A stretch of 64,000 bases of DNA, from the NCBI RefSeq assembly GCF_009766105.1, contig NZ_LMUH01000026.1:187966-251965 (forward strand). Direction: 5' to 3'. Under the pieces are notes generated by a model, which did not search any database, was not told the DNA's origin, and saw only the letters and a list, made by a program, of their open reading frames with translations. Made by a program: the position numbers and the translations under genes. Positions 9,088-35,100 of this stretch are shown here, one piece after another (position 1 is the first letter of the stretch; each line of letters starts with the position of its first letter). This DNA is from Granulicella sp. S156 (lineage in GTDB: Bacteria; Acidobacteriota; Terriglobia; Terriglobales; Acidobacteriaceae).

Positions 9088-9118
9088 GAGGGATATCAAT
9101 AGTTGTTGTGCCGTACGC

Positions 9119-9436: not shown

Positions 9437-9566
9437 TAAGACATCTTGCGAGTGGTGTATTGGAACATATAGCGTCCGTGTTGGAAAAATAACAAAATTC
9501 GAGATGAACTCAAGTCTGCGGTTCAGTCTCTACCGGTGAGAATTGTGTCATCGAAGATCAGGATCT

Positions 9567-9581
9567 CTGTTGAATCAACAG
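9567..9581. promoter_or_regulatory. Perfect 15-bp palindrome upstream of TonB-dependent receptor
   Basis: CTGTTGA-A-TCAACAG is a perfect 7-1-7 inverted repeat, 73 bp before the ATG of the receptor gene. Size and position fit a repressor operator, for example of LacI or GntR type. The protein that would bind it is unknown. Confidence 0.5.
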
Positions 9582-9653
9582 GTACTGCGTAGCCATCGCA
9601 GTGCAGTAGAACTCGACCGGCCATTGGTATGAAGTATTTCAGGAGGCAACACG

Positions 9654-13280: not shown

Positions 13281-13290
13281 TAATGCTGGA

Positions 13291-13328
13291 GCGCCGAGCC
13301 AGGCAGTTATGACTGCCTGGCTCAGCGC
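13291..13328 (+). terminator. Hairpin terminator after TonB-dependent receptor
   Basis: GCGCCGAGCCAGGCAGT (13291-13307) pairs with ACTGCCTGGCTCAGCGC (13312-13328) with one mismatch and a 4-nt loop, followed by TTCTTCGGCTTT. It lies 10 bp after the receptor stop. It may end or attenuate transcription before the GH51 gene. Confidence 0.8.
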
Positions 13329-13436
13329 TTCTTCGGCTTTCCAAGAACCAGATGGTACGCTATTGTCCCGATGGGATGGCATCGATCCTCGTCTTCTCGA
13401 TCCTCGTTTTATGTACGAAAGAAAAAATCATTGAAT

Positions 13437-15566: not shown

Positions 15567-17096
15567 CTAATCTTCGGGCTCTACCTGGATCGCGTTAATA
15601 AGTGGATAGTTCGTGTCCGGTGCGAAAGATAGTTCCAGCATGCCGTGAGACGTAGACTTTATATGATCAAAGGTTACGAGAACCATGCCGTCCTTCTGAT
15701 CTCTTGCAATGTCGAAGTCTTTTAGTAAGGTCACACCGTTGCAGTAGACATCAAATACTCGACTCCCCACGCCGCCTGGGCCACCATTGTTTTTGCCAAA
15801 CCATCCTTCGGAAAAATACAACCTAACTTTGTATTCTTTGCCCACAACAACGGGAATGAGATAGCGAAAATGTCCATATCGCTCCCATTCGAAGAGTTTC
15901 GAGTTCGCGGCCTTGGGTAGATTATCTGAATGAAATGCCCGCCTGCCCCCCTGGAAGAAACGTTCTGGAAGCCAGGTGTTCCCCTGGTCATCGTGAAACA
16001 TCGCGGGACCAGCAAGCATCCGCAACGGAAGTCCACCATCTGAATTGGACGGCGCAATCTCGGCAGCGTTAACAAACGAGCCATCTGAAGTAAAGTCCAA
16101 ATGGATCGTGCCGTCATCCATCGGGTGAATTCCCGCATACACTTTGCCAACTACGACATCATCTCCACCTGCTTCGTCAACGATATCCAAGGCCGCCGTT
16201 GCAGCATTGTTAATCGAGAGATCTACCTGTCGCGCTGCTTCTTTATCTCCTGCGGTGTCGGCGAATAGCAGCTGAAGTTGATAGCTTCCTGGAGGGACGG
16301 GAATCCTGCATTGGAATTTGCCCTCGCGCCCCTCTTGAAACAGCGCCGGATCGTCAGTGCCTTGTATTTCGCGGTTCGGATGGGAAAAGGTTGAGCCGCC
16401 TTTGCAGTATTGGTCCGTAAGCCATGTTTGTCCAGCAACATCCACATAAGGGTGCGAGGTTACGCCAAAACGGACGCGGATGGCTCGATCCTGCGCTGTC
16501 CCAACAGGTTCTGCAGGCACCGAATTACCGGCAGCCTTTGCTGCGGACACAAGACTTTCCTGTGTGCCTGATTGCTTGTGTCTTAAGAGATTGCTCCCCA
16601 GTAACAACAGAGCGGCTGCTCCGACAAGAGCCAAGCATCCCCAGATTATTCTTCTGGGAAGACTTGTAGGGGGTATGCCCTCCAGAGGTTCCTCTAGCGC
16701 TGGTAAGGTCTCGCGAGGGGCTGCAGGTGGCATGCTTGTCGATCTCTTGCGCTCAAACTGCAGAACATATTTACCCGCTGGCAGCCGAATCTGTATGGGG
16801 TGGTCGGCACCTGTCGTGGCGTAATACTGTTCCAGTTTTTTCCGCAATGTGTGAGCCGAGACGCGCACGATGGTATCTGATTGAGGATCGAACTGCTCCT
16901 GTCGATGCAGCGCCTGGACGGCAATACTATATTCCTTGATCTGTTCAGTGTTTCCGGCAAAGTGTTGTTCCGCTACGAACTCCAGGAACTTCCGCAAATT
17001 GGAAGCTTTGTCCAGAAGGCCCGACTGAAGCACGGCTTGAAGTTCCTGCCATTCTTCTTCCTGCGCAGCATTTATTGGGGGATTCGCCAAGACCAT
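15567..17096 (-). CDS. Membrane regulator with winged-helix-like N-terminus and two periplasmic malectin domains
   Basis: A 509-residue protein. Residues 15-115 form a domain common in acidobacterial regulators: a helical part (LRKFLEFVAEQHFAGNTEQIKEY), then FDPQSDTIVRVSAHTLRKKLEQYY and a hairpin-like PIQIRLPAGKYVLQFE. The end resembles the recognition helix and wing of OmpR/CadC-type DNA-binding domains (inference). A Pro-rich linker leads to one transmembrane helix (about 150-170). The remainder holds two malectin-type carbohydrate-binding domains (about 207-350 and 352-507; GQTWLTDQYCKGGSTFS, GNTWLPERFFQGGRRAF). The layout fits a one-component sensor that reads glycan in the periplasm and acts on DNA in the cytoplasm. 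An open frame extends 35 codons upstream, but GGAGGA 10 nt before 17096 decides the start. It is divergent from an operon of malectin-bearing enzymes. Confidence 0.8.
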   Translation of the reverse strand: MVLANPPINAAQEEEWQELQAVLQSGLLDKASNLRKFLEFVAEQHFAGNTEQIKEYSIAVQALHRQEQFDPQSDTIVRVSAHTLRKKLEQYYATTGADHPIQIRLPAGKYVLQFERKRSTSMPPAAPRETLPALEEPLEGIPPTSLPRRIIWGCLALVGAAALLLLGSNLLRHKQSGTQESLVSAAKAAGNSVPAEPVGTAQDRAIRVRFGVTSHPYVDVAGQTWLTDQYCKGGSTFSHPNREIQGTDDPALFQEGREGKFQCRIPVPPGSYQLQLLFADTAGDKEAARQVDLSINNAATAALDIVDEAGGDDVVVGKVYAGIHPMDDGTIHLDFTSDGSFVNAAEIAPSNSDGGLPLRMLAGPAMFHDDQGNTWLPERFFQGGRRAFHSDNLPKAANSKLFEWERYGHFRYLIPVVVGKEYKVRLYFSEGWFGKNNGGPGGVGSRVFDVYCNGVTLLKDFDIARDQKDGMVLVTFDHIKSTSHGMLELSFAPDTNYPLINAIQVEPED

Positions 17097-17608
17097 GTGG
17101 TAATGCTCCTCCAAGTTACAGCGGGGATCATTATAACGATCAAAAATGGACATGAGCGATTTCATTAACGTCATCGTTAACGTTGTTATTAACGAATTCA
17201 CTGCGGATCAGAAACGCCATAGCCATGTCTCTATGGCCCAAGCCTAGGGCGAGCCTAAGTAGAACATTCGTAAATACGTTACGGCAGGTTAAAACGGCGT
17301 CAAATGAAGCCGATGGATTGGCTTGCTAGAACCTCTTGGATCTCGCCTTATCCGTGAATGAACGGCGACTCACTTGTCAGATGGGCACCCGTTCCCACAG
17401 TGTCACAACATTACATATGTCAGCGTTGCGAACGCCGCAAATCGAAGGTGTTGGCAAACGGAGCCTCATGTACCCCCAAAACCATTCCACCGAAGCTGTT
17501 CTTAGTCCTCGCAGCTCAACGCCTGCGAACCCGAAGCTCGATCCGGAGACTATCCAAAATAGATACCTGGAGGGTTGTCCTTGGGGCATTGGCAGCTGTC
17601 GGTCGGTT
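17097..17608. other. Divergent control region: malectin regulator / malectin-enzyme operon
   Basis: The region between the regulator start and the preferred start of the first operon gene. It contains the triple TTAACG repeat (listed separately), an inverted repeat GCCATAG-N8-CTATGGC (17216-17237) and CGTAA-N5-TTACG (17269-17283). From 17336 onward the region is open in the frame of the downstream gene, so part of it could be coding if translation starts earlier. The composition there does not look like a conserved domain. Confidence 0.5.
17165..17194. promoter_or_regulatory. Three TTAACG repeats at exact 12-bp spacing
   Basis: TTAACG occurs at 17165-17170, 17177-17182 and 17189-17194, a period of 12 bp. 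The middle copy extends to TTAACGTTG, the same half-site seen in the 26-bp palindromes at 39313 and 41185. The repeats lie 69-98 bp upstream of the malectin regulator start and face the malectin-enzyme operon on the other side. They are a candidate binding site for the regulator itself. Confidence 0.55.
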
Positions 17609-20600
17609 ATGACGAGGCTCTCGCTTATCGGACTCGTGCTGGCCGCGCTGTTCGCAGGGGCGCGAACAGCCTCCGCACAGAACTCGACGATCTTTGGTCC
17701 CAACGTCTACGTTTTTACACCTGGCGATTCGGTGTCCTCGATTAATACGACTCTCAATACGCTGAACGCGAACACACAATTCAGCACCAATCGCTACGCG
17801 GTGCTTTTCGCTCCGGGCACGTATACCGGTGTTGAATCCGAGGTTGGATACTACGAATCCGTCGCTGGACTTGGGGAGACGCCTGGTGCCGTCACCATCA
17901 GCAATGGCTATCTGACCTCAAACCAGACAGATTCCAACGGCAATTTGACGACAAATTTCTGGCGCTCCATCGAGAACATGTCCATCACGCCGCCGTCAGG
18001 TGATTTGCTGCAATGGGGAGTTTCGCAGGGAGCGGCCTTCCGACGCATGTATGTCGATGGCGCAATGGAACTTACGAATACATACTGCGGGGAGGCAAGT
18101 GGCGGGTTCATCAGCGATACCGTAGTCACCGGAAACATCGGATCTTGCTCCCAGCAGCAGTGGTATACGCGCAATAGCTCCATTGGGAGTTGGACGGGAA
18201 ACCTTTGGAATATCGTTTTCTCCGGCGTCTCAGGAGCCCCAGTCCCGAACTATCCGACGGGTAATACCTATACTGTTCTTCCCACCACTCCAGTGAGCCG
18301 TGAAAAGCCCTTCCTCTATATGGATAGCAGCGGAAGCTACTGGGTGTTCTCGCCGACCTTGAGGACAAATTCGTCGGGCACAAGTTGGTCAAGCGGAGGG
18401 CTTGGTGCTGGCAACTCTCTGCCCATCAGCACCTTTTATATCGCCACGCCTTCGAGCACTTTGGCGCAGATCAACGCCGCTCTGGCCTCAGGTCAGAACC
18501 TCATTCTGACTCCTGGTATTTACACCTATAGCGGATCCATCAACGTGACCAATGCAAATACCGTGGTTCTGGGACTCGGCTATGCGAATCTCAGTCCGCA
18601 GACGGGAACGGCTGCAATCACCGTAGCCGACGTGAGCGGCGTGCAGATCGCCGGACTGCTTATTGATGCCGGGCCAGTCAATTCACCGGTCCTCTTCCAG
18701 GTAGGTGTTGCAGGAGCATCGCGCGTTAGCCACGCAAGCAATCCAACGTCGATCAGCGATGTATTTTTCCGCATCGGTGGAGCTGTAACGGGAACGGCAA
18801 CCGAAAGCATGGAAATCGATAGCGACAACGTCATCCTGGACAACATCTGGGCGTGGCGCGCAGACCACGGACAGGTTCCTGTTGGTTGGACCGTAAACGT
18901 GGGCATCAATGGATTGGTTGTAAACGGAGACTACGTCACAGCCTTGGGGCTGGCCGTCGAGCACTATGAGGGCGGCCAGGTCGTATGGAACGGTGAAGGT
19001 GGAGAAACCATCTTCTATCAGAGCGAAATGCCCTATGACGTTCCGAGCCAGAGCGCATGGATGGATGGCACCGTGGACGGTTATGCCTCCTACAATGTCT
19101 CGCCAACAGTCACGACCCACACGGCCTACGGCCTCGGTGTTTACTCCTACTTTGATCAAGGGGTACCCATCGTCGCAAATAGTGGTATCGCCGTTCCAGT
19201 TGCTAGCGGCGTTACTGTGACCGATGCGGTAACGGTATTCCTGTCCGGAAGTGGCCAAATCACCTACACCATCGCTTCAGACAGCGGCACTGTCGATAAT
19301 GCAGGCACAGTGGCCGAGTCTGGCTCCATTACCAGCTATGTTGCCTCCTACGGTGGTTCGAGCGGAGGTTGTACTGCAGTTCCTTCGCCGCCGACAGGTC
19401 TAACGGCATCAACGTCTTCTTCAAGTGCTATTAGTTTGAGCTGGACCGAATCTAGCCCTCCGGCGAACTGCACCGCCAGTTCCTATAACGTCTACGCCAG
19501 CACCACCAGCGGGTTTACTCCGTCCTCGAGCAATCTGATCGCGAGCGGGTTGACGGGGACCAGTTATCCCAGCACTGGGCTCGCCGCGTCGACAACGTAT
19601 TACTACGTCATAGAAGCGCTTGACGCAGATGGAGCTTCGGCGGCATCGGCACAAGCTACCGCTACGACTCAAAGCAATAGTGGCAACTGCACCTCCGTAC
19701 CTTCAGCTCCGACCGGTCTAACGGCGACGGTCTCCTCCTCCAGCGCTATAGGTCTGATCTGGACGGCAGATACACCACCGGCCAACTGCACGATCAGTTC
19801 GTACAGCGTCTATGGCAGTACCGTCAACGGATTCACCCCGTCCTCGAGCAACCTGATCGCTAGCGGGTTGACGAACGCGAGCTACTCCAACACTGGGCTC
19901 ACTGCTTCTACAACGTACTACTACGTCGTAGAAGCAATCGACGTGGACGGCACTTCGGCGGCATCGACGCAGGCCAGCGCAGAGACTTCGGCAGCGGCAT
20001 CCGGGGCGGAGATCGTGGCCATCAACTCCGGCGGCCCTGCTGTAAGCAACTCGGGCGGAGGTGATGCCTCCTTTGTAGCGGATGAAGACTTCAGTGGCGG
20101 CGGCGCGGATATATCGGCGAATGCCATCGTCACTGCAGGTGTGGCCAATGCCGCTCCAGCGGCTGTCTATCAGTCAGAGCGCGCGGGGGCCTTTACCTAT
20201 ACGATTCCGGGCCTGACGGCTGGCACCCAATACACGGTTCTGCTGCACTTTGCAGAATTCTATTGGACTGCGGCAGGGCAACGTGTCTTCAACGTTGCGA
20301 TCAACGGCACAACCGTTCTCAGTAACTTCGACATCTATGCCGCGGTTGGAGCGAATAAGGCGTTGGTCGAGCAGTTCACCGCAACCGCCAACAGCAGCGG
20401 CCAGATCATCATTGCTTATACCAACGGCACGGCTGATCAACCCAAGTCCAGCGGTATCGAGGTCCGAGGCGGAAGCTCCAATGCCTGCAGCACGGTTCCT
20501 TCTGCGCCCGCTGGGCTCACGGCTACTGCGTCTTCCTCCAGCGCCATCGGTTTGAGTTGGACGGCAGATACACCGCCGACTAACTGCACCATCAGCTCGT

Positions 20601-21577
20601 ATAGTGTCTACGGCAGCACCGTCAACGGATTCACCCCGTCGTCAAGCAACTTGATCGCGAGCGGGGTGACGAGCGCCGGTTACTCCATCACCGGCCTCAT
20701 CGCTTCGACTAACTACTATTATGTTGTGGTAGCGGTCGATGCGGATGGAACCTCGGTGGCATCATCGCAGGTCGGCGCCGAAACGCTGGCCGCTACGTCA
20801 TGCAGCGTGGTTCCTTCTGCGCCAACTGGCCTTACGGCAACTGCGTCTTCCTTCAGCACCATTGGTTTGAGCTGGACGGCAGATACACCACCGGCCGGTT
20901 GTACTATCAGCTCGTACAGCGTCTACGGCAGCACCACCGGTGGGTTTACTCCATCTTCGAGCAACCTGATTGCAAGTGGGGTAACGAGTGCGAACTACTC
21001 CAATACAGGTCTCGTTGCTTCAACACCCTATTACTACGTCGTACAAGCAGTTGACGCAGACGGAGCATCGCCAGCATCGGCACAAGCATTCGCTACTACG
21101 CAATCCTCCAGCACGGACTTCGTGGCCATCAACTCGGGTGGGCCGGCGGCCAGTAACTCGAGCGGCGGTGACGCTTCCTTCATTGCTGACGAAGACTATA
21201 GCGGGGGTGGCACAGACACGTCGGCCAACACGATTGTCACAGCGGGTGTCACCAATGCAGCACCGGAGGCGGTCTACCAGTCGGAACGGGCGGGAACCTT
21301 CACATATACGATCTCTGGCCTGACTGCTGGCAGCGAACACTCAGTTCTGTTGCACTTCGCAGAGTTCTATTGGACCGCAGTAGGGAAGCGTGTCTTCAAC
21401 GTAGCCATCAATGGCACCACTGTTCTCAGCAACTTCGACATCTATGCGACTGTTGGTGCAAACCATGCGTTAGTCGAGCAATTTACGGCTACCGCTAACA
21501 GCAGTGGCGAAATAGTCATTGCCTATACCAACGGCACAGCAGATCAACCTAAATCCAGCGGCATCGAAATTCGGTAA
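17609..21577 (+). CDS. Secreted beta-helix (GH55-like) protein with four FN3 and two malectin modules
   Basis: About 1322 residues. The signal peptide MTRLSLIGLVLAALFAG...ASAQ places the likely start at 17609, although no good Shine-Dalgarno precedes it and the frame is open from 17336. Residues 24-585 form two beta-helix-like halves: FGPNVYVFTPGDSVSSIN, RYAVLFAPGTYTGVESEVGY, then STLAQINAALASGQNLILTPG and VVLGLGYANLSPQTG. This matches a family I remember from actinobacteria under uninformative names such as coagulation factor 5/8 domain protein; it resembles GH55 exo-beta-1,3-glucanases in layout, but activity is unproven. Then follow FN3-FN3-malectin (about 586-953) and FN3-FN3-malectin (958-1322). 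It is the first gene of four similar plus-strand genes, 85 bp before the next. It probably binds or cleaves extracellular glucan. Confidence 0.75.
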   Translation: MTRLSLIGLVLAALFAGARTASAQNSTIFGPNVYVFTPGDSVSSINTTLNTLNANTQFSTNRYAVLFAPGTYTGVESEVGYYESVAGLGETPGAVTISNGYLTSNQTDSNGNLTTNFWRSIENMSITPPSGDLLQWGVSQGAAFRRMYVDGAMELTNTYCGEASGGFISDTVVTGNIGSCSQQQWYTRNSSIGSWTGNLWNIVFSGVSGAPVPNYPTGNTYTVLPTTPVSREKPFLYMDSSGSYWVFSPTLRTNSSGTSWSSGGLGAGNSLPISTFYIATPSSTLAQINAALASGQNLILTPGIYTYSGSINVTNANTVVLGLGYANLSPQTGTAAITVADVSGVQIAGLLIDAGPVNSPVLFQVGVAGASRVSHASNPTSISDVFFRIGGAVTGTATESMEIDSDNVILDNIWAWRADHGQVPVGWTVNVGINGLVVNGDYVTALGLAVEHYEGGQVVWNGEGGETIFYQSEMPYDVPSQSAWMDGTVDGYASYNVSPTVTTHTAYGLGVYSYFDQGVPIVANSGIAVPVASGVTVTDAVTVFLSGSGQITYTIASDSGTVDNAGTVAESGSITSYVASYGGSSGGCTAVPSPPTGLTASTSSSSAISLSWTESSPPANCTASSYNVYASTTSGFTPSSSNLIASGLTGTSYPSTGLAASTTYYYVIEALDADGASAASAQATATTQSNSGNCTSVPSAPTGLTATVSSSSAIGLIWTADTPPANCTISSYSVYGSTVNGFTPSSSNLIASGLTNASYSNTGLTASTTYYYVVEAIDVDGTSAASTQASAETSAAASGAEIVAINSGGPAVSNSGGGDASFVADEDFSGGGADISANAIVTAGVANAAPAAVYQSERAGAFTYTIPGLTAGTQYTVLLHFAEFYWTAAGQRVFNVAINGTTVLSNFDIYAAVGANKALVEQFTATANSSGQIIIAYTNGTADQPKSSGIEVRGGSSNACSTVPSAPAGLTATASSSSAIGLSWTADTPPTNCTISSYSVYGSTVNGFTPSSSNLIASGVTSAGYSITGLIASTNYYYVVVAVDADGTSVASSQVGAETLAATSCSVVPSAPTGLTATASSFSTIGLSWTADTPPAGCTISSYSVYGSTTGGFTPSSSNLIASGVTSANYSNTGLVASTPYYYVVQAVDADGASPASAQAFATTQSSSTDFVAINSGGPAASNSSGGDASFIADEDYSGGGTDTSANTIVTAGVTNAAPEAVYQSERAGTFTYTISGLTAGSEHSVLLHFAEFYWTAVGKRVFNVAINGTTVLSNFDIYATVGANHALVEQFTATANSSGEIVIAYTNGTADQPKSSGIEIR

Positions 21578-21662
21578 ACCGGACCAACGAATGCCAGTAG
21601 TACCGAGTGCAGAAATATCCCTCTCGACTCGTTGATAACAGTTCACTAACAAGGAGTTCGTC

Positions 21663-24600
21663 GTGCTTACAAATTTCAATTCCCTGCGAGACTCGGTTCG
21701 TTCAGGCCAGGAAACCTCCCACCAAATGATTAATCTCTCTACAGCATTCCACTCTTGCAAGAGAGTATTTCTGGTTCTTGCTGCATGTTTCCTGTGTGCC
21801 TCTTCGTTGCACGCGCAGTGGACTCAGGTTTGGGGTGGCAATTTCCCCGGAGCCGCGGGAACTACTTACAACCATGCCGATTGGTGGAACGATGTTCAGC
21901 CCACCGCAGTATGGGGCGATGGCACGATACAAAATACAAGTGACAGCCTCCAGAATGCGTATCTCGATGGCAATGGCGATCTAGTGATTGCGATGACGTA
22001 TAACCCAAATGCGGCGGTGCCATACACTTCTGCCCGATTGACAAGTACCTATGCGGCTGGACCTTACGGACGCATCGACGCCCGCATCCAGAATCCATCG
22101 GCTGTGGGTATGGGCGCAGCCTTCTGGGCATTGGGTGCGGATGCTTACCCGGCAGGTACGGGACCAGGCTCTTCGGCGCCAAGCACGAACGGAGGCACGC
22201 CCTGGCCATGGTGCGGTGAGTTGGACATGATGGAACTTCAGTCCTCGAACGCCGCTCATAACGGGTCGACTATCCACGGTGGAGAGACCGATTCGCAGAC
22301 CAGCTACGAGTATGGCGGAATCAGCGCAACCGTGAACTTGACGGGAGATCAGACCTTCGACAATAGCTTTCACATCTTCACCACGGAGTGGTCGCCATAT
22401 CAGATTCAATACCTTCTGGATGGTGTGGAATATGGCAGCGTCAATCTTGCCAACATCGGGGTTACCGATCAGTGGGAGATGAATCAGCCGATCAACTTCA
22501 TCCTCAGCTCCGGGGTCGGTGGGAATGGTGGAACGCCGAATGGCACTGGATTCCCATCTAACCTCGTCATCAACTACGTCAACTACTCGCAATGGAGTGC
22601 GGGTGTGCCTGCTCCAGTCACCGGGCTTACCGCGACAGCACCGTACAGCAACGCTGTCGATCTCAGTTGGAAAGCGAGTTCGACCTCGGGTGTTACTTAC
22701 GATATTTATGCCAGCACAACTGCGGGAACGGCGCCGAGTCTTGCCACACTCGTCGCGCAAAGTGTATCGGGCACCTCTTATACACATACAGGTTTGCAGC
22801 CGAACACGACCTACTATTACACGGTGGTCTCGGCAAATTTTGGTGGTGAATCCAGCGCATCCAACGCCACGGTAAGCACGCAGGCAGCAGGGAACAGCAC
22901 CGGCATGCAATTGAGCGCAGGCGGTTATGCCATTGGCACTTACATGGCCTCCAATTTCGTTCTCGGTGGCAATACGAACTATCACTACAACGTTGGGCCG
23001 CCATCGGGCCTTACCGCAGTCAACACCTCGCAGGTTACAAATCCCGCACCGCAAGAGGTCTACAACACGGAGCGCTGGGGTGCTGCAGCATGGACGATCA
23101 CGGGTTTAACCCCGCTGGCTGGCTATAACGTTCGGTTGCACTTCGTGGAGTTTGCTCACACCGCAGCTGGGCAGCGCAATTTCAATGTATCTATTAATAG
23201 TGACCAGGTTTTAACCAATTTCGACATTATTGGCACTGCAGGTGCCGCAGATACGGCCATCGCAGAAGAGTTCTATACCCAGGCCGATGAGAACGGCATC
23301 ATCGAGATTCAAACCACTGCTGGCACGACCACTGTCGTCGATTTGAATCCCACAATCAACGCAATTGAAATTACCCCGGCTACCGGCGGCAATCCTGTAG
23401 GAGCTGCTCCGGGCACCATAACCGACCTTGCTATCAACTCTGGCGGCGCAGCAGTTGGCAATTTTGTGGCCGATGAAGATTTCAATGGCGGAGACGTAGC
23501 CACATCGACAGCTACAGTCACTCTCGGTTCGAATTCCGCTCCCGAGGCTGTCTATCAGTCCCAGCGCTATGTGCCATTCACCTATGTGCTGACCGAGTTG
23601 GTCGCGGATGCGCCTTATACCGTGAATCTGCATTTCGCAGAAAGTTATTGGACGGGTGTGGGTGATCGCATCTTCAACGTTGTGATCAATGGAACGCAGG
23701 TTCTGACCAATCTCGACGTATTCAAAATAGCTGGCGGCGAAAACATTGCCTATGATCCACAGTTCACCGCGAGTGCTGACAAGTATGGGCAGATTATCGT
23801 GCAGTTTGTCTACGGTGGTGCTGATCAGCCCTTCATCAACGGAATCGAGGCCGTAAAGAGCGGCGGTGTTGCTCCTGGCTGCACCGCAGTTCCTTCTGCA
23901 CCGACAGGACTCACGGCGACAGCCTCTTCCGCAAGCACGATCGGCTTGAGCTGGACGGCAGTCGCAGCCCCAGCCAACTGCACGATTACCTCTTACAACG
24001 TTTACAGCAGCACCGTCAGTAGGTTTGTCCCATCATCAAGCAACTTCGTTGGCAGTGTGACCGGGACAACCTATTCCAATACTGGCCTTAGCGCCTCGAC
24101 ACCCTACTACTATGTGTTGGAAGCGGTAGATGGCGATGGCCCTTCCACGGGATCGACGCAGGCAACTGCGACCACTCAGTCATCGGGTTCTGGATCTGGG
24201 ACAGGGATTGTTGCCATTGATTCAGGAGGTCCCGCAGTCAGCAACTCGGGTGGCGGCGACGTCTCTTTTGTCGCCGATGAATACGTAACCGGCGGAGGCA
24301 CCGACACCTCTGCCAATACCATCACCACGGCAGGCGTGGCCAATGCGGCCCCGATGGCCGTCTATCAGTCAGAGCGTGCAGGAACTTTCACCTATACGAT
24401 TCCGGGTTTGACGGCAGGCGCTCAATACACCGTTCTCTTGCACTTCGCAGAGTTTTACTTCACAGCGGCCGGACAGCGTCTTTTCAACGTAGCTATCAAC
24501 GGCACAACGGTGTTGAACAACTTTGACATCTATGCCACAGCAGGAGCCAATAAGGCGTTGGTCGAGCAGTTTACGGCCACAGCCAATAGTAATGGGCAAA

Positions 24601-25454
24601 TTGTCATCGCCTACACGAATGGTTCGGCAGACCAGGCCAAATCGAGCGGTATCGAGATACGAGGGGGTAGTTCCGGAAGTTGCAGCACGAATCCTTCCGC
24701 TCCAACTGGTCTCACTGCTACGGCGACCTCATCAAGCGCTATAGGTCTGAGTTGGACGGCGGTGACCGCTCCAGCCAACTGCACCATCAGTTCCTATAAC
24801 GTATACGCAAGCACAACCAGTGGCTTCACTCCATCAGCGAGCAACCTGATTGCGAGCGGGATCACAACGCCAAGCTACTCGAACACTGGCCTGACTGCTT
24901 CAACCACCTACTACTATGTCGTCGAGGCGCTCGATGCAGAAGGAAACTCAACAGCCTCGGCTCAGGCATTCGCTACTACAACCGTGTCCAGCGATTTCGT
25001 AGCCATCAACTCTGGCGGCCCCGCAGTCAGCAACTCAAGTGGTGGAGACGCATCGTTCGCCGCGGATGAGGACTTTACTGGGGGCGGCACAGACACCTCA
25101 GCCAACATCGTCACAACGGCAGGTGTAGCCAACGCGGCGCCGGCGGCAGTCTATCAGTCGGAGCGCGCGGGAATCTTCACCTACACCATCTCGGGGCTGG
25201 CCGCCGGAAGTTCCCACACCGTCCTGCTGCATTTCGCCGAGTTCTATTGGACGGCAGCAGGGCAGCGTGTCTTCAACGTAGCCATCAACGGCACTCCAGT
25301 GTTGAGCAACTTCGATATCTATGCCACGGCTGGTGCGAACAAAGCGCTGGTCGAACAGTTCACGGCTACTGCCAACAGCAGCGGCCAAATCGTCATCGCC
25401 TATACCAATGGAACAGCGGATCAACCTAAATCCAGTGGTATCGAAATTAGATAG
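21663..25454 (+). CDS. Secreted GH16 beta-glucanase with four malectin and three FN3 modules
   Basis: A 1263-residue protein that starts at GTG 21663, chosen because AAGGAG lies 6 nt upstream; an ATG 21 codons later is an alternative. The signal peptide ends near SSLHAQ after a long n-region. GH16 catalytic domain at about 52-317, with the retaining-enzyme motif GELDMMEL: E186 nucleophile, D188 assisting, E191 acid/base (the ExDxxE form common in laminarinases). Downstream order: FN3 (315-410), two diverged malectin domains (415-573, 586-733), FN3 (740-841), malectin (848-1000), FN3 (1006-1108), malectin (1112-1263). GH16 enzymes of this form cut beta-1,3 or mixed-linked glucans. The malectin domains (CBM57 in CAZy terms) probably hold the enzyme on its substrate. 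Confidence 0.88.
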   Translation: MLTNFNSLRDSVRSGQETSHQMINLSTAFHSCKRVFLVLAACFLCASSLHAQWTQVWGGNFPGAAGTTYNHADWWNDVQPTAVWGDGTIQNTSDSLQNAYLDGNGDLVIAMTYNPNAAVPYTSARLTSTYAAGPYGRIDARIQNPSAVGMGAAFWALGADAYPAGTGPGSSAPSTNGGTPWPWCGELDMMELQSSNAAHNGSTIHGGETDSQTSYEYGGISATVNLTGDQTFDNSFHIFTTEWSPYQIQYLLDGVEYGSVNLANIGVTDQWEMNQPINFILSSGVGGNGGTPNGTGFPSNLVINYVNYSQWSAGVPAPVTGLTATAPYSNAVDLSWKASSTSGVTYDIYASTTAGTAPSLATLVAQSVSGTSYTHTGLQPNTTYYYTVVSANFGGESSASNATVSTQAAGNSTGMQLSAGGYAIGTYMASNFVLGGNTNYHYNVGPPSGLTAVNTSQVTNPAPQEVYNTERWGAAAWTITGLTPLAGYNVRLHFVEFAHTAAGQRNFNVSINSDQVLTNFDIIGTAGAADTAIAEEFYTQADENGIIEIQTTAGTTTVVDLNPTINAIEITPATGGNPVGAAPGTITDLAINSGGAAVGNFVADEDFNGGDVATSTATVTLGSNSAPEAVYQSQRYVPFTYVLTELVADAPYTVNLHFAESYWTGVGDRIFNVVINGTQVLTNLDVFKIAGGENIAYDPQFTASADKYGQIIVQFVYGGADQPFINGIEAVKSGGVAPGCTAVPSAPTGLTATASSASTIGLSWTAVAAPANCTITSYNVYSSTVSRFVPSSSNFVGSVTGTTYSNTGLSASTPYYYVLEAVDGDGPSTGSTQATATTQSSGSGSGTGIVAIDSGGPAVSNSGGGDVSFVADEYVTGGGTDTSANTITTAGVANAAPMAVYQSERAGTFTYTIPGLTAGAQYTVLLHFAEFYFTAAGQRLFNVAINGTTVLNNFDIYATAGANKALVEQFTATANSNGQIVIAYTNGSADQAKSSGIEIRGGSSGSCSTNPSAPTGLTATATSSSAIGLSWTAVTAPANCTISSYNVYASTTSGFTPSASNLIASGITTPSYSNTGLTASTTYYYVVEALDAEGNSTASAQAFATTTVSSDFVAINSGGPAVSNSSGGDASFAADEDFTGGGTDTSANIVTTAGVANAAPAAVYQSERAGIFTYTISGLAAGSSHTVLLHFAEFYWTAAGQRVFNVAINGTPVLSNFDIYATAGANKALVEQFTATANSSGQIVIAYTNGTADQPKSSGIEIR

Positions 25455-25605: not shown

Positions 25606-28600
25606 ATGCATACCCAATATATCTGTATTGAAAAGCTGCGCAACCATAGCACTCGCTTCCAGGATATCTTCAGGTTATGGCCCATCGTGTCGATGATAGT
25701 GCTCGCTATCGCCGCATTACCTTTGGGAAGCGCGCGCGCCCAGCAGGTCGAGCCAACGCTCCCAACATCGCAACGGGTCACAATCAATCTGTCAGCCGGG
25801 ATGCCTGGGCAAAACCCATGGCTTTATATCAAGGACTCAGACTCGCCGACTTATGCATCACCTTCTTTTAATGATTCCTCCTGGACTCCAGTGGGAATTC
25901 CATACTCGGCGAATTTCTTTACCTCGTTTCTCAATGCGGACTCCGGTGGTGGAGATGGTGATCTAAATGGAACCAATAACTGGTATCGCCTGCACTTTAC
26001 GGTCGGGACTCAATACGCAAACAGCAAGATATTAGTTGAGTTCGAGGGTGCGCACACAGGTGCGCAGGTTTACATCAATGGAACGCTTCTACCGGGAATC
26101 AGTGCCGTCGCTGCCAATGCGCAGGCCTCCCACGTCGTCGGTTTTATTCCCTTTATTGTCGACCTCACGCCATACGTGACGGCCGATGGTGCTACGGAAA
26201 ATGTGCTCGCCGTAAGTGTCTCTCGAAATAACACCTGGTTTGAACAGCCGGGTTTCTCACAGGATTATCGTTTCGGTCAGGCCGACGCTGGATTATTCCG
26301 TCCGGCCTATATGTTCATCACGAATAAAGTACATATCCCCGTTAATGTCTATTCTAATCAGAAAACGTGGGGCACGTACGTCGCAACAGTATCTGAAGTT
26401 CCTTCCCAGAGCAGTACGGCGCAAGCTGCCTCGGCTGTTGTCGAGGTGCAGACAAACGTTCTCAACGAAGATACAACTTCGCAGCAAGTTACCTTGACGA
26501 CGCAGATTGTGGACGCAAATGGAAATGTAGTGGCTACCGCGCCACCCATCACTCAGACAGTGGCACCCATGACTGCGAGTAGTTTTCCATCTACTGCGGC
26601 TCCAATGTTCGATCAACAGATCACGGTGAATAATCCCACCTTGTGGTACCCGAACAACAGCACCTTCGGTACACCTTATATGTACAAGGTCTACCACATC
26701 ATCAGTGTTAACGGGCAAGTGGTCGACTCGGCGCAAAGTCCGCTGGGTATCCGCACGATCACGTGGGACCCCAACTTCCCATACTTCAATGGCCACCCCA
26801 TGTATTTATGGGGAGCTTCGGGGCGCTACGACTATCCTGCATTAGGATCCTCCGTCCCCGAAGAACAGCAGTGGCGCGACCTTGCGCAGTTAGCCGCAGA
26901 GGGCGGAAACATTTGGCGTCCGGGACACTCGACCACCAGCGAGGAATTCGTGAACGCGGCCGATGAGTATGGCATCATGATCGATCAGCCGAGCGGAGAC
27001 GGCGAGGGTGCCTTCAATACGCCGACCGCGGATCAGGTGACGCTGAAGGAAGAGTTGCATCGTGACATGATCCTTCGTGATCGCAGTCATCCGTCTATTC
27101 TCGACTGGGAGTCCAACAACGGCACGATGAATGAAACTGTTGGTGAAGCCCTTCTAGCCCTCGATAAGACCTGGGACCCCATCAATACACGCGTCGCAGC
27201 CGACCGCACGCCTGACCCCGTAAATGGTTATATGCTCGGCTGCACTCTGCAAGGCTGTGAGGTCGGTGTCAAGAATGAGTTCCCGAATAATCCGGCATGG
27301 GGAGCGGAGTATTGGGGTAACGGGTCGGCACGGGGTTTGGATTGGAACTACGAACTCGCCTTTGCCGCACCATTTCTGGACAGCTGGCGTCAAGGTAAAG
27401 CGGCAAACGCCTTCGGAATGGCGCAATGGTACTTTGCCGATTCCCCTGGCGAAGACAGCCTTTATGCGGAATTTACAGGCCAACCGTCGCAGCAAAGTAT
27501 GGTTCGCTCGCTGGGCGCCTCCTCAGTCGATATGAACAGATTCCCCAAGTTGCTGTACTACATCTATGAGGCAGCTTGGACACCTTTTTCCATCAAGCCA
27601 GTTGTGCGCCTGGCGAATCATTGGAACCTTTCCGGAGCTGTTCAGGAGAATGCGTTCAGCAACTGCCCATCTGTCAGCCTGCTGGTCAATGGCGTACAGC
27701 AAGGTTCAGCTAAGGTGCCAAATAGCTGGGATTCAAACTCCGAATCGAATTTGACGCAAACTACGACCCTGATGCCATTCCAAACCTCGTGGCCTGTCAC
27801 TTGGGCTTCCGGTACCGTAGAGGCAGACTGTCTCGATCAGTTCGGAAATGTGCTGGCGAAAGACACCAGGGTGACAGCCGGAGCAGAGAGCAAAATCGTG
27901 CTCACCGTCGTTCCTGAGTTGACCAAGCCGGATGGGACGAACTTCGCTGTCACGGCGAACGGCTCTGACGCAGCTTTTGTTGTAGCCCAGATAGAAGACG
28001 CAAATGGGAATATAGAACCGCTTGCCTCCGACGTACTTACATTTTCTGTGAACGGTCCAGCTACGTATATGGGTGGCTCCGAGCAATATGTGTCCACTGC
28101 AACAGACGCATATTCGACCGCTTCGGGCAATAGCGAGCTTAACTATCATGCGCCCGGAGACCCTCAGCTGCAGGTCGAAGGCGGCATGACTAAGATCGCT
28201 ATTCGGAGCCAGTTCACTTCGGGAAATGTAACGGTCACTGCCACCGCTCCCGGCCTGGCTTCGGGGACCGCAACCTATACGATCCAGCCGATCCCGAGCG
28301 TTACGCCAGCGTCGACCGCTCCATCCATCATTGTGCAGCCCGTAAGCACTGCGGTGACACAGGGGCAATCGGCTACGTTTTCCGTCACGGCAGCTGGCAC
28401 CTCACCATTCACTTTTCAGTGGTTCAAAAATGGTTCCACAATCGCCGGCGCAACCAGTTCCACATATACCACTCCTGCCGCTGCCTCGACGGACAACAAC
28501 AGCAGCTTCACCGTGACCGTCACCAACAGCGTTGGGTCCGCAACGTCCGGTGCTGCCATTCTCACGGTGGATGCGTCGGCGAACGTTGTTATTACCACTC

Positions 28601-31600
28601 AACCTGCAAGTCAGACGGTGTATGTTGGTCAAACAGCCCAGTTATCTGTCGCCGCAACCGGTTCGCCTACCCTTACCTATCAATGGCTAAAGAATGGTGC
28701 GACGATTGCCGGAGCGAACAGCTCTACCTACACGACTCCTGTTCTTGCGTCGACAGACAACGGTGACAGCTTTACTGTGGTTGTCGCCAATCCTGTTAAT
28801 TCGGTCACTTCGGCGCCCGCGGTGCTCACGGTAGACCCAGCCATCGCGCCTGCAATCACCCAACAACCCGTTAGCCTTTCCGTGTTGGCAAATGATCCGG
28901 CTACCTTCTCCGTTGGGGTCTCCGGTTCTTCGCCCTTTACATACCAGTGGCAACTGAATGGAGTGAATCTTCTTGGCGCCAATGCAGCGACATACGCCAT
29001 TCTTGCAGTGCAATCCACCAATGTTGGCAGCTACACGGTGGTCGTCACAAACGCTGCAGGTAGCGTTACGAGTGCACCCGCTACGCTTACCATCGCGCCG
29101 CCAGGAGTTAATCTGGCTCTTAATCAACCGGCCACTTCCAGTACAACGCAAGGTGCCGGATTAACTGCGAATTATGTGAACGATGGCGACCTCACGACCC
29201 GGTGGGCGTCAGCAGGAGGCATTGATCCTTCGTGGGTCGAAATCGATCTCGGATCAGTGCAGGCCTTTGACAACGTCATCCTGTACTGGGAAGCAGCATA
29301 CGCCAGTACGTATCAGATCCAATATTCAACCGACAACTCAACCTGGAACGTCGCTTACAACAATACCAACGGTGTCGGTGGCGTAGAGAATCTCACCTTC
29401 CCCACTGTTATGGGTCGATATGTTCGCATGTACGGCGAAACGCGCGCCACAACGTATGGGTATTCGATCTATGAATTCCAAGTTTATGACGTGGCACAGT
29501 GCGGAGGTTCGAGTGAGCGCTATACCGTTCTGAGCTCTACAGCCGTACTCGACAATATAAGCCAGCTAACCTGGCTACGTTCCGAAAACACCTATGCCAA
29601 TGGTGGTGCGCAGTATACGCAGCCAATCGCCCAGACCTACTGCGCAAGCCAAAACATGCGTTTGCCCACCCAGGCAGAAGCTCTGGCCATCAGTGGGGCC
29701 GCTTCTGCTTCCTGTGCGTTTCCTCAGGCATGGAATACGTGGACATCAACGACTGATCCTTTGAACATTAACGACGCTGCTTTTGTCTCCTCAACTGGTC
29801 AATCTACTTTTCAGGTCGCGAATAACTATCCCGGCGCGGTGCTGTGCAACTCGGGTACAACGGTCCCGCCTCCCACCATTACGACCCAGCCCGTGTCACA
29901 AACAGTCGCTGCTGGGCAGAGTGCCACGTTCAGTGTCGTGGCTGCGGGCACTGGTCCATTTACCTACCAGTGGTATCAGAATGGAGCCTCCATCACCGCT
30001 GCGATAGCGGCCAGCTATACGACCCCTGCAACAACAGCCGCTCAAAGTGGCACACTCTTCACCGTGGTTTTGACTGGCCCAACGAAAGAGACGGTCACCA
30101 GCAACTCCGCGACACTCACCGTGTCGGGGGCGGGCAGTGGTAATTGCACAACGCTTCCATCTGCGCCGACCGGGCTGACAGCGACAGCTTCCTCCCCCAA
30201 TGTCATCAACCTGAGTTGGACTGCAGTCACGCCTCCAGGGAGCTGCTCGATCAGCTACTACAACGTCTATGGCAGCCCGACAAGCGGTTTTACTCCTTCT
30301 GCGAGCAACCAGTTATCTAGTGGGCTGATAGAAACAACCTACTCCAATACGGGCCTTTCGGCCTCGACAACCTACTACTATGTCGTAGAAGCCGTTGATG
30401 CAGACGGCTCGTCGTCGGCCTCGTTGCAGACCTCCGCAACCACACAAGCCGCCGCTTCCGGCATAGATGTAGTAGCCATCAACTCCGGTGGTCCTGCCGC
30501 CAGCAATACAGGAGGTGGCGATACCTCCTTCGTGGCTGATGAAGATTTCACCGGTGGTGGTGCGGCCACCTCCACGAATGCCATTACCACGGCAGGCGTA
30601 ACCAACGCTGCGCCGCTGGCTGTCTATCAGTCGGAACGTGCAGGAGTCTTCACCTATACCATCCCAGGACTGACCGCCGGCACACAGTACACGATTCTTC
30701 TCCACTTTGCGGAGTTCTATTGGACGGCGGCAGGGCAGCGTGTCTTCAATGTCGCCATCAACGGCACAACGGTACTCAGCAACTTTGACATCTATGCCAC
30801 AGTCGGCGCCAACAAGGCTTTGGTTGAGCAGTTCACGGCCATGGCCAACAGCAGCGGTCAAATTGTAATCGCCTATACCGCTGGTTCTGCTGATCAACCT
30901 AAATCCAGTGGCATTGAAATCAGAAGCAGCTCTAGCAGTTGCAGCGCCCTCCCAGCGGCCCCGACAGGCCTAACGGCAACGGCGTCCTCCTCGAGCGCTA
31001 TCGGTTTGAGTTGGACCGCACCAACCGCTCCCACTAATTGCACCATCAGCTCCTACAACGTCTACAGCAGCACAACCAGCGGGTTTATCCCATCCACGGC
31101 TAACCTTATTGCAAGCGGCGTGACCGGCACTAGCTATTCCAACACCGGTCTCGCAGCCGCAACGACGCACTACTATGTCATGGAAGCGATCGATGCAGAC
31201 GGCACATCCGCCGCCTCATTTCAAGCCGGTGCCGAGACTACGGCCATCTCCTCATGCACCACCGTCCCATCTGCGCCGACTGGCCTAACGGCAACGGCAT
31301 CTTCTTCCAGTGCCATCGGTCTTACTTGGACCGCACCTACGCCTCCCACGAACTGCACCATCAGTTCCTACAACGTCTATGGCAGCACCACCAGCGGGTT
31401 TGCCCCATCCACGACTAACCTTATTGCGAGCGGTGTGACCAGTGCTAACTACTCCAACACCGGCCTCACCGCTTCCACCACCTATTACTACGTCGTCGAG
31501 GCCATTGATGCAGACGGCTCGTCGTCGGCCTCATTGCAGACATCGGCAGCCACGCAGGCAGTCTCGTCCGGCACGGATATAGTAGCCATCAACTCTGGTG

Positions 31601-32037
31601 GTCCCGCGGTAAGTAATGCAGGAGGCGGTGATGCATCCTTCGTCGCTGACGAAGATGTCACTGGTGGAGGCACTGACACCTCCACGAATGCCATTACCAC
31701 GGCAGGCGTAACCAACGCCGCACCCATGGCCGTCTACCAGTCGGAACGTGCAGGGGTCTTCACCTATACCATCCCAGGCATGACGGCTGGCACACAGTAC
31801 ACGGTTCTTCTCCACTTTGCGGAGTTCTATTGGACGGCGGCAGGGCAGCGTGTCTTCAATGTCGCCATCAACGGCACAACTGTACTCAGCAACTTCGATA
31901 TCTATGCCACAGCCGGCGCCAATAAGGCTCTGGTTGAACAGTTCACCGCGACCGCTAACAGTAGTGGTCAAATTGTGATCGCCTACACGGCTGGCTCTGC
32001 AGATCAACCTAAGTCTAGTGGTATTGAAATCAGATAA
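25606..32037 (+). CDS. Giant secreted GH2-like protein with Ig, F5/8C, DUF1566-like, FN3 and malectin modules
   Basis: 2143 residues with a signal peptide to about residue 47. GH2-type core at about 60-780: sugar-binding jelly roll (WYRLHFTVGTQYANSKILVEFEG), sandwich, and TIM barrel (NFPYFNGHPMYLWGASGRYDY, GNIWRPGHS, HPSILDWESNNG). The usual acid/base glutamate position holds Gly506; E510 in GTMNET may substitute. A nucleophile may be the Glu of WGAEYWG. Following modules: three Ig-like domains (906-1165), an F5/8 type C/CBM32-like domain (1168-1295), a DUF1566/Lcl-like cysteine-containing domain (1304-1419), Ig (1423-1507), FN3, malectin (1622-1773), FN3, FN3, malectin (1991-2143). AAGGGAG precedes the ATG. 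Third gene of the operon. Probable large extracellular glycosidase, but a binding-only role is possible. Confidence 0.78.
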   Translation: MHTQYICIEKLRNHSTRFQDIFRLWPIVSMIVLAIAALPLGSARAQQVEPTLPTSQRVTINLSAGMPGQNPWLYIKDSDSPTYASPSFNDSSWTPVGIPYSANFFTSFLNADSGGGDGDLNGTNNWYRLHFTVGTQYANSKILVEFEGAHTGAQVYINGTLLPGISAVAANAQASHVVGFIPFIVDLTPYVTADGATENVLAVSVSRNNTWFEQPGFSQDYRFGQADAGLFRPAYMFITNKVHIPVNVYSNQKTWGTYVATVSEVPSQSSTAQAASAVVEVQTNVLNEDTTSQQVTLTTQIVDANGNVVATAPPITQTVAPMTASSFPSTAAPMFDQQITVNNPTLWYPNNSTFGTPYMYKVYHIISVNGQVVDSAQSPLGIRTITWDPNFPYFNGHPMYLWGASGRYDYPALGSSVPEEQQWRDLAQLAAEGGNIWRPGHSTTSEEFVNAADEYGIMIDQPSGDGEGAFNTPTADQVTLKEELHRDMILRDRSHPSILDWESNNGTMNETVGEALLALDKTWDPINTRVAADRTPDPVNGYMLGCTLQGCEVGVKNEFPNNPAWGAEYWGNGSARGLDWNYELAFAAPFLDSWRQGKAANAFGMAQWYFADSPGEDSLYAEFTGQPSQQSMVRSLGASSVDMNRFPKLLYYIYEAAWTPFSIKPVVRLANHWNLSGAVQENAFSNCPSVSLLVNGVQQGSAKVPNSWDSNSESNLTQTTTLMPFQTSWPVTWASGTVEADCLDQFGNVLAKDTRVTAGAESKIVLTVVPELTKPDGTNFAVTANGSDAAFVVAQIEDANGNIEPLASDVLTFSVNGPATYMGGSEQYVSTATDAYSTASGNSELNYHAPGDPQLQVEGGMTKIAIRSQFTSGNVTVTATAPGLASGTATYTIQPIPSVTPASTAPSIIVQPVSTAVTQGQSATFSVTAAGTSPFTFQWFKNGSTIAGATSSTYTTPAAASTDNNSSFTVTVTNSVGSATSGAAILTVDASANVVITTQPASQTVYVGQTAQLSVAATGSPTLTYQWLKNGATIAGANSSTYTTPVLASTDNGDSFTVVVANPVNSVTSAPAVLTVDPAIAPAITQQPVSLSVLANDPATFSVGVSGSSPFTYQWQLNGVNLLGANAATYAILAVQSTNVGSYTVVVTNAAGSVTSAPATLTIAPPGVNLALNQPATSSTTQGAGLTANYVNDGDLTTRWASAGGIDPSWVEIDLGSVQAFDNVILYWEAAYASTYQIQYSTDNSTWNVAYNNTNGVGGVENLTFPTVMGRYVRMYGETRATTYGYSIYEFQVYDVAQCGGSSERYTVLSSTAVLDNISQLTWLRSENTYANGGAQYTQPIAQTYCASQNMRLPTQAEALAISGAASASCAFPQAWNTWTSTTDPLNINDAAFVSSTGQSTFQVANNYPGAVLCNSGTTVPPPTITTQPVSQTVAAGQSATFSVVAAGTGPFTYQWYQNGASITAAIAASYTTPATTAAQSGTLFTVVLTGPTKETVTSNSATLTVSGAGSGNCTTLPSAPTGLTATASSPNVINLSWTAVTPPGSCSISYYNVYGSPTSGFTPSASNQLSSGLIETTYSNTGLSASTTYYYVVEAVDADGSSSASLQTSATTQAAASGIDVVAINSGGPAASNTGGGDTSFVADEDFTGGGAATSTNAITTAGVTNAAPLAVYQSERAGVFTYTIPGLTAGTQYTILLHFAEFYWTAAGQRVFNVAINGTTVLSNFDIYATVGANKALVEQFTAMANSSGQIVIAYTAGSADQPKSSGIEIRSSSSSCSALPAAPTGLTATASSSSAIGLSWTAPTAPTNCTISSYNVYSSTTSGFIPSTANLIASGVTGTSYSNTGLAAATTHYYVMEAIDADGTSAASFQAGAETTAISSCTTVPSAPTGLTATASSSSAIGLTWTAPTPPTNCTISSYNVYGSTTSGFAPSTTNLIASGVTSANYSNTGLTASTTYYYVVEAIDADGSSSASLQTSAATQAVSSGTDIVAINSGGPAVSNAGGGDASFVADEDVTGGGTDTSTNAITTAGVTNAAPMAVYQSERAGVFTYTIPGMTAGTQYTVLLHFAEFYWTAAGQRVFNVAINGTTVLSNFDIYATAGANKALVEQFTATANSSGQIVIAYTAGSADQPKSSGIEIR
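30695..30770 (+). repeat. 76-bp tract identical to 31805-31880
   Basis: These 76 bp, inside the first malectin module of the 2143-residue protein, match 31805-31880 in its second module base for base, while flanking module DNA differs at many positions. The copies are 1110 bp apart, the length of one malectin-FN3-FN3 unit. This suggests recent duplication or gene conversion. Confidence 0.8.
31805..31880 (+). repeat. 76-bp tract identical to 30695-30770
   Basis: Second copy of the identical tract in the last malectin module of the same gene. Closely similar but not identical stretches occur in the malectin modules of the neighbouring genes, for example around 33600-33680. Confidence 0.8.
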
Positions 32038-32147: not shown

Positions 32148-35100
32148 ATGTCGAATAGCTATTCAGTTCCTCTGCGCAGAATCATTCTTCGTGCGTTCTC
32201 CCTATTGATCGTTATCGCCATCTTTGGATTTGTATCAACGGCCCGTGCAGCCACCACGGAGATCGTCGCCATCGCTTCAGGTGGTCCGGCTGTGAGTAAC
32301 TCGGGGGGCGGTGATGCATCTTTCGTTGCCGATGAGTATTTCAGTGGCGGTGGTACCGACACATCCACCAACACTATTGTTACTGCTGGCGTTGCCAATG
32401 CGGCACCCGAGGCAGTATATCAATCAGAGCGCGCAGGAACGTTCACCTACACAATTCCGGGGCTTACGGCAGGCAGTCAATACACGGTGTTGCTGCATTT
32501 TGCCGAATTCTATTGGACGGCAGCAGGACAGCGTGTCTTCAACGTCGCTATCAACGGCACAACCGTACTGAGCAACTTCGATATCTATGCCACAGTGGGT
32601 GCCAACAAGGCTCTCGTCGAGCAGTTCACGGCGACTGCCAACAACAGCGGTCAGATTGTCATTGCCTATACCAACGGAGCCGCAGATCAACCTAAATCCA
32701 GCGGCATCGAGATCCAACAAGTCACTGGCGGCTGCTCCACAATACCATCGGCTCCTGCTGATCTGAAGGCATCATCATCTTCCTCCTCCTCGATCAATCT
32801 AAGCTGGGCCGCAGTAACTCCGCCAGCAAATTGCACCATCAGCTCCTACAGCGTCTACGGCAGCACTACCAGTGGATTCACTCCTTCCGCGAGTACCTTA
32901 CTATCTGGCGGCCTAACGGGCACCACGTACTCCAACACCGGCCTCGCAAATGCGACAACGTACTACTACCTTGTAGAAGCCATCGATGCAGACGGCACGT
33001 CAGTGCCCTCAGCGCAAGCCAGCGCACAGACCGCAGCCGCATCGTGCAGCGCTGCTCCGTCGGCACCGACAGGACTCACCGCGACGGCCACTTCCGCCAG
33101 CGCAATCAATCTGAGCTGGATCGCACCAACTGCCCCGACCAACTGCACCATCAGCTCCTACAATATCTACAGCAGTACCGCGAGCGGGTTCACCCCATCC
33201 GCTAGCAGTTTGATTGCAACGGGCATAACCGGAACTTCTTACTCCAATAGCGGCCTTAGCACTTCTTCCACTCACTACTACGTCGTAGAGGCGCTGGATG
33301 CGGATGGTGCGTCGTCCGCTTCGACTCAGGCGGTAGCGACTACACAAGCTACCTCATCCAGCACAGAGATAGTAGCCATCAACTCGGGCGCCCCCGCTGT
33401 CAGTAATGCGGGTGGTGGAGATACATCTTTTGTCGCTGACGAAGACGTCACAGGCGGAGGAGCAGACACATCCACGAATATCATCAACACGGCCGGCGTA
33501 ACCAATGCTGCGCCCACGGCGGTCTATCAATCGGAGCGCGCAGGGGCCTTCACCTATACCATTCCTGGCCTCACATCCGGCACTCAATACACCGTTCTGC
33601 TGCACTTTGCCGAGTTCTATTGGACGGCGGCAGGGCAGCGTCTCTTCAATGTCGCCATCAACGGCACAACCGTACTGAGCAACTTCGACATCTATGCAGC
33701 GGCGGGAGCGAACAAAGCCTTAGTCGAGCAGTTTACCGCTACCGCTAATAGCAGCGGTCAAATCGTGATCGCCTATACGGCCGGCTCTGCAGACCAACCT
33801 AAATCCAGCGGTATCGAAATCAGAAGCGCCTCCAGCAGCTGCAGCACACTGCCTGTGGCTCCGACTGGACTTACTGCGACGTCGTCTTCCTCAAGCTCAA
33901 TTAACTTGAACTGGAATGCTGCTACTCCTCCGACCGATTGCTCCATTAGTTCCTATAGCATCTACCGCAGTACCACTAGTGGATTTACGCCGTCTTCGAG
34001 CAACTTGATATCGAGCGGAGCTGTTGTTAATACCACCTATACCGACACTAACCTCACGCCTTCGACAACCTACTACTACGTCGTAGAAGCCGTTGATGCG
34101 GACGGTTCATCCGTCGCCTCGTCTCAAGCCGACGCGGAGACTGCTGCCACCGCCTCATGCTCTGCCGTCCCATCGGCGCCAACTGGCTTGACGGCGACGG
34201 CATCGTCTTCTACTACGATTGCCATAAGTTGGGCCGCAGCCACCCCACCGGTCAACTGCTTAGTAAACTCCTACAGCATCTATGGCAGCACAATCAACGG
34301 ATTCACTCCCTCCGCCAGCACCCTGCTGGCCAGCGGACTGACGGGCACCACGTATTCCAATAGCGGCCTCGCCGCTTCGACAACTCACTATTATGTTGTG
34401 GAGGCTGTCGATGCGGTTGGTGCATCGGCACCCTCGGCTCAAGAGTCCGCAACCACACTGTCTGGCTCTTCCGGAGAAATCGCAGCCATCAACTCCGGTG
34501 GTCCTGCAGTGAGCAATTCAGGTGGCGGCGACGCATCTTTTGTTGCTGATGAGTACGTCACCGGCGGCGGTGCAGCCTCTTCGACCAATCCTGTAAACAC
34601 CGTAGGCATAGCAAATGCAGCGCCCGTGGCTGTTTACCAGACGGAACGCAATGGAACCTTCACCTACACCGTTCCAGGCCTGGCACCCAGTGCACAGTAC
34701 ACCGTCCTGCTCCACTTCGCAGAGACTTATTGGACAGCTGCGGGACAACGTATCTTCAACGTCGCTATCAACGGCGCTCCAGTGCTTAGCAACTTCGACA
34801 TTTACGCGACGGCCGGAGCGAACACAGCCCTGGTTGAACAGTTCACCGCGATTGCCAATAGCAACGGCCAAATCGTCATCGCCTATACCGATGGATCCAT
34901 CGATCAACCTAAATCCAGCGGTATCGAGATACGTGGCGCTTCTAGCAATTGCACCCTCCTTCCCCCCGCTGCACCCGTGGGCTTAACCGCGCTTGCATCG
35001 TCTCCCAGCATCATTGGCCTTACCTGGACGGCAGTTACTCCTCCGCCTAACTGTGCCATCACCTATAACGTGTATGGCAGCACAACGAGCGGCTTTACTC

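Follow-up and report, generated by a model that had tools for sequence, protein, structure and literature searches.

In Bacteroidetes, polysaccharide utilization loci with hybrid two-component systems place a membrane-bound glycan sensor beside the genes for glycan degradation. In FecI/FecR-type control, a membrane regulator adjoins a TonB-type receptor, and a single genome carries many paralogues. Acidobacteria are abundant soil degraders, and no described regulator of an acidobacterial polysaccharide locus was found in the literature searched. Transmembrane transcription regulators (TTRs) are widespread and relatively abundant in Acidobacteriae (PMC10269533); the word malectin is absent from the text of that survey.

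The regulator described here (P0001) is encoded in a 64,000-nucleotide stretch of Granulicella sp. S156 DNA, which we refer to as the window. In our judgement it is probably a transmembrane regulator of the one-component kind, which detects fragments of beta-1,3-glucan and governs the operon divergent to it. As in ToxR/CadC-like TTRs, a predicted N-terminal winged helix is followed by one transmembrane helix and a C-terminal periplasmic sensor, with no phosphorelay. Unlike those proteins, the regulator has a tandem malectin sensor, the N-terminal domain (N-domain) of most members of its family is too diverged for Pfam, and the family is paired en masse with TonB-type receptors. With the Bacteroidetes hybrids it shares a membrane sensor, for a predicted glycan, that adjoins glycan-degrading genes, but it has no histidine kinase, receiver or AraC domain according to Pfam, and its putative winged-helix output is part of the same chain. 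FecI/FecR systems resemble it in that membrane regulators lie beside TonB-type receptors with many paralogues in one genome, but here Pfam finds neither a sigma factor nor a FecR domain, and a DNA-binding-type domain is in the same chain. Its PF11721 domains, which show a weak match to the solved malectin 2jwp, relate it to malectin/CBM57 proteins; it differs from these in that the malectins lie behind a transmembrane helix and a DNA-binding-type domain, with no catalytic domain in the chain. We place the regulator among the transmembrane one-component regulators, as a variant with a predicted malectin sensor. An earlier note on this DNA knew of no described system that couples a malectin sensor to DNA, and neither such a coupling nor a description of this acidobacterial family was found in the literature searched, outside of which lay most subscription journals.

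Architecture of the regulator and its N-terminal domain

The regulator gene was assigned the ATG at 17096, which is preceded by a strong ribosome-binding site (GGAGGAG) and matches the start of the Silvibacterium orthologue in alignment; the program-made open reading frame runs further, to a GTG at 17201. On the whole protein, the PF11721 model scores 97.9 bits (cut-off 23, E 8.2e-28) in two stretches, and no other Pfam domain, neither receiver nor kinase, exceeds its curated cut-off. The only hydrophobic segment directly follows an RR pair, and most paralogues and homologues have one hydrophobic peak at the equivalent position. The two periplasmic malectin-type domains and the single transmembrane helix that the earlier note had read from the sequence are borne out by these results. 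The same is true of the two motifs it reported in the cytoplasmic domain, IVRVxAxxxRKKLxxYY and IxLPAGKYV, which fall within residues ~63-118 and whose pattern is kept in 31 copies in the source genome and in about 28 homologues. Outside the N-domain, the full-length AlphaFold model is of poor quality. The coordinates of all features are collected in Table 1.

Table 1. Features of the regulator gene, the divergent intergenic region and the divergent operon (window coordinates)
Feature	Position	Strand	Evidence
Regulator CDS, 509 aa (P0001)	15567..17096	-	ORF, Pfam, orthologues
N-terminal domain, residues ~13-118, likely a diverged OmpR-type winged helix	16743..17060	-	family profile comparison, AlphaFold
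Transmembrane helix, residues 150-171	16584..16649	-	hydropathy
Malectin domain 1	16062..16490 (PF11721 core ~16134-16454)	-	Pfam
Malectin domain 2	15579..16049 (PF11721 core ~15675-16007)	-	Pfam
Divergent intergenic region, assuming GH55 start at ATG 17468	17097..17467	.	start comparison with L061
Three TTAACG copies, 12-bp period, 68-103 bp upstream of regulator ATG; candidate autoregulatory site	17164..17199	+	P about 7e-4, Markov shuffles
Candidate operator TATCCGTGAATGAACGGCGACTCACTTGTC, 89 bp upstream of GH55 ATG	17349..17378	+	conservation, genome scans
Secreted GH55 exo-beta-1,3-glucanase-type domain + fn3 + 2 malectin	17468..21577	+	Pfam, PDB profile
GH16 + fn3 + 4 malectin	21663..25454	+	Pfam
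GH2-like + Ig + F5/8C + fn3 + 2 malectin	25606..32037	+	Pfam
GH64 beta-1,3-glucanase + fn3 + 3 malectin; weak CBM56, under cut-off	32148..36737	+	Pfam

The combination of N-domain, transmembrane helix and two malectins is present in 28 of 151 genomes of the class, indicating that it is neither a chance arrangement nor an artefactual fusion; in a phylum-wide sample it was found only within the taxonomic family of the source genome. The protein might be read as an ordinary malectin lectin, secreted or membrane-bound, that takes no part in regulation, and malectin domains are indeed common in the source genome (21 PF11721 matches). However, no secretion signal was found ahead of the N-domain, that domain is related to Trans_reg_C across the family, and its genes are paired with receptors and operons, all of which makes a plain lectin very improbable.

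Several lines of evidence connect the N-domain with Trans_reg_C, the Pfam model for OmpR/PhoB winged helices (cut-off 26.2 bits). A search of the genome with this model recovered two N-domain copies alongside ordinary response regulators, one in paralogue L027 (32.2 bits, above the cut-off) and one in L013 (22.4 bits). At E<=1 the model matched 9 of 24 aligned family members, the best with 7.7e-8, and P0001's own N-domain scored 12.3 bits, under the cut-off. When the family was compared by hhalign with the genome's own Trans_reg_C domains, p was about 3e-6 to 4.3e-6, and 3.9e-5 for the malectin-type N-domains alone, with values up to 5e-5 across these comparisons; without L027 and L013 it was 1.6e-4. 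Among the controls, the best of 30 column-shuffled profiles reached 0.012 and GerE 0.18-0.49 (0.49 in the comparison of malectin-type N-domains). The diverged winged helix proposed in the earlier note is therefore supported by homology, and the N-domain is likely to be of the OmpR/PhoB type, with P0001 a remote member.

The prediction of structure, which the earlier note had put forward as a check, agreed in part. The best AlphaFold model of the N-domain (pLDDT 87; built on four sequences, with the five models ranging from 51 to 87) consists of four helices and then a two-strand wing (H-H-H-H-beta-beta), the right order of elements for a winged helix, but Foldseek found no match in the PDB with E<0.9. 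The top match, with a TM score of 0.36-0.44, was ScpB, a winged helix. A profile search of the PDB with the N-domain gave weak matches only, one of them to the recognition-helix region of SaeR (E 1.1), and a search of viral contigs for additional N-domain sequences returned none. The absence of a significant Foldseek match and the weak Trans_reg_C scores of most members, P0001 included, could also mean that the fold derives from a winged helix, has lost DNA binding and now serves as a protein-interaction module. We consider this unlikely: few parts of the domain are as well conserved as the putative recognition helix (IVRV-A--LRKKL--YY), and the malectin-type branch has a common upstream DNA dyad of its own, described below.

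A family of regulators beside TonB-type receptors

The N-domain family has 31 members in the source genome. A gene for an outer-membrane receptor of the OMP_b-brl_4 type is immediately divergent to 21 of them and is found within the stretch examined for all 31. At least 65 such receptor genes occur in the genome, and the number of regulator-receptor pairings expected by chance is well under one, taking the genome as ~5,400 genes, which is an estimate. The number of members and the head-to-head arrangement suggest a large, undescribed family of regulators. The pairing extends to the malectin-type branch, in which the regulator is divergent to a receptor gene at 9 of 19 sampled loci with a usable regulator gene.

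Malectin pairs are carried by two family members in the source genome. Among the 28 paralogues that lack malectins, most have in common a periplasmic domain of ~240 aa, which merits a family name and for which profile searches of the PDB gave no credible match. A tree shows malectin pairs joined to N-domains at least two times, indicating that the sensor and the predicted DNA-binding parts are interchangeable. On balance we lean toward the view that these winged-helix transmembrane regulators, a large and undescribed family, serve Terriglobia as plug-in control of outer-membrane nutrient uptake. Each protein would then be assigned to a single TonB-type receptor or polysaccharide locus, and the periplasmic sensor would be swappable, with tandem malectins in one branch and the unnamed domain in most paralogues here. 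If true, Acidobacteria have in this family their own equivalent of FecI/FecR and of the hybrid regulators of Bacteroidetes, and its malectin branch is a lectin coupled directly to DNA. The frequent pairing with a receptor also offers a handle for predicting the substrates of many unassigned acidobacterial receptors.

A second member of the family lies in the window (39553-40986, minus strand), divergent to a gene for a TonB-type receptor (41320-44820, plus strand). Its ~240-aa periplasmic domain had no convincing match in Pfam.

The divergent operon and its predicted substrate

The eleven malectin domains that the earlier note had counted among the products of the divergent operon were found again, distributed as 2, 4, 2 and 3 over four genes (17336-36737). 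The GH55 open reading frame as made by the program begins at 17336; the ATG listed in Table 1 was inferred by comparison with Silvibacterium bohemicum (L061). The GH55 domain matches PDB entry 4pew with E 6.6e-153. This entry is SacteLam55A, a GH55 exo-beta-1,3-glucosidase (PMC10637969). The assignment of GH64 as a beta-1,3-glucanase family follows the Pfam description. By its enzyme families, the predicted target of the GH55-GH16-GH2-GH64 operon is beta-1,3-glucan, sources of which are fungal walls, callose and laminarin.

The divergent layout is conserved. In S. bohemicum the regulator is divergent to orthologues of the GH55 and GH16-type genes, and on a metagenome-derived contig (L062) it is divergent to a GH55 orthologue. 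The latter regulator (L062:2617-4117) is frameshifted inside its first malectin domain, which may reflect an assembly error or a pseudogene.

The enzyme families of the operon and the layout shared by the orthologues make beta-1,3-glucan our best guess, by association, for the signal. The suggestion of the earlier note that sensor and enzymes recognise the same polymer is refined accordingly, in that the polymer of the operon can be given as a predicted beta-1,3-glucan. Relatives with the same sensor have varied neighbours, ranging from GH9, GH30, GH12, GH38 and esterase genes to genes of cytochrome-like, PQQ and TPR type. Since distant malectin-type regulators thus also occur beside non-carbohydrate genes, the ligand may vary. 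It is possible, though we do not favor it, that P0001 is a DNA-binding regulator whose malectin pair responds to a different sugar or to the envelope of the cell itself, or makes contact with a partner protein, for instance a TonB-type receptor; most family members are paired with such a receptor. On the other hand, the divergent partner of the window regulator is not a receptor gene, and GH55 stays the divergent neighbor in the closest orthologues, one of which also retains GH16.

On its other side the regulator gene is met by a convergent arabinan-type locus (3372-15500, plus strand) with genes for GH2, GH54, a TonB-type receptor and a GH51-like protein. This operon was considered as a target of the regulator and rejected, as no further site like the candidate operator described below was found in the window. 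Elsewhere in the window, a glucuronoyl-esterase-like protein (48017-49450, plus strand; PF22244, 8.9e-30) is encoded near a UPF0182 protein (45153-47960).

A candidate operator and a proposed mechanism

The intergenic regions of three orthologous loci, from three species, have in common the sequence GTTCATTCAC[G/C]GATAA, whereas random shuffles shared no 10-mer. Its 15-base core has a single exact occurrence in the 6.4-Mb genome. A 16-mer searched with two mismatches allowed was found at three places, compared to two for a reversed control, so that this count alone has little meaning. One of the three places, however, lies upstream of an unlinked gene for a secreted single-malectin protein of 224 aa (L156:4177-4851, G000:C13), 76 bp ahead of its ATG. 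The orientation is kept there and the likeness extends past the 16-mer into ACTCACTTG; we predict that this gene is a second target. The 30-bp pattern TATCSGTGAATNAACNNNNAYTNACTTGNC was derived from the element sites themselves and therefore fits them with zero mismatches by construction. It has two sites in the source genome and, with two mismatches allowed, is absent from 298 other genomes of the class. The distances from the 3' end of the element to the proposed start codons are 76, 77, 89 and 90 bp. Control of the divergent operon, as the earlier note had proposed, is thus supported by a conserved and highly specific element between the genes and by the layout kept in both close orthologues.

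An in-frame peptide, LSVNE, can be read ahead of the GH55 ATG in both the window and L061. Coding conservation was rejected as the origin of the element: in L062 the corresponding frame differs from that of GH55, and at the second site in the genome the gene that follows is another one.

A blind count of dyads upstream of 27 malectin-type regulators was topped by TAAC-N9-CTTG, which exceeded the best dyads of the shuffled sets. It is found at 9 of the 27 regulators (0.3 in shuffles) and at 1 of 28 other paralogues, and the window element has the same spacing (GAAC-N9-CTTG). TAAC-N8-CCTTG and TAAC-N7-TAAC each occur at 7 of the 27 (0.06 and 0.25 in shuffles, respectively) and at none of the 28. 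The instances are mostly oriented toward the divergent gene. The period of TAAC-N7-TAAC is 11 bp, which is typical of head-to-tail operators of the OmpR/PhoB type.

The element might instead serve as a promoter, or be bound by another regulator or a sigma factor. It ends in CTTG(A/C/T)C, which is like a -35 box, AAC-rich boxes resemble ECF -35 sites, and the divergent intergenic region yielded no sigma-70-like promoter. But the absence of the 30-bp pattern from the 298 genomes and the near absence of the dyad upstream of other paralogues indicate that the element follows the malectin regulator branch, and we regard its assignment to a different protein as rather doubtful.

With the element taken as the regulator's own operator, the locus can be assembled into a model in which DNA binding, the glycan ligand, the mechanism and the direction of control are predictions. 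The first enzymes of the operon would release beta-1,3-glucan oligosaccharides, which would enter the periplasm, where the malectin pair would bind them as the sensor. The transmembrane helix would relay the signal to the cytoplasmic winged helices, whose arrangement on the element would change, and the operon and the unlinked secreted malectin gene would be switched on. We assume activation, given how far the element sits upstream of the start codon. The TTAACG repeats before the regulator's own gene may provide autoregulation. The locus thus offers a candidate regulator with a predicted ligand, a predicted operator and a predicted regulon of two sites.

Direct repeats were not enriched as a general operator over all 30 regulator-receptor intergenic regions. 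At one other locus, a malectin-type regulator gene is flanked by identical 17-mers (TAACCGCTTTAACCTTG) on opposite strands (L122:4405 and 6162).
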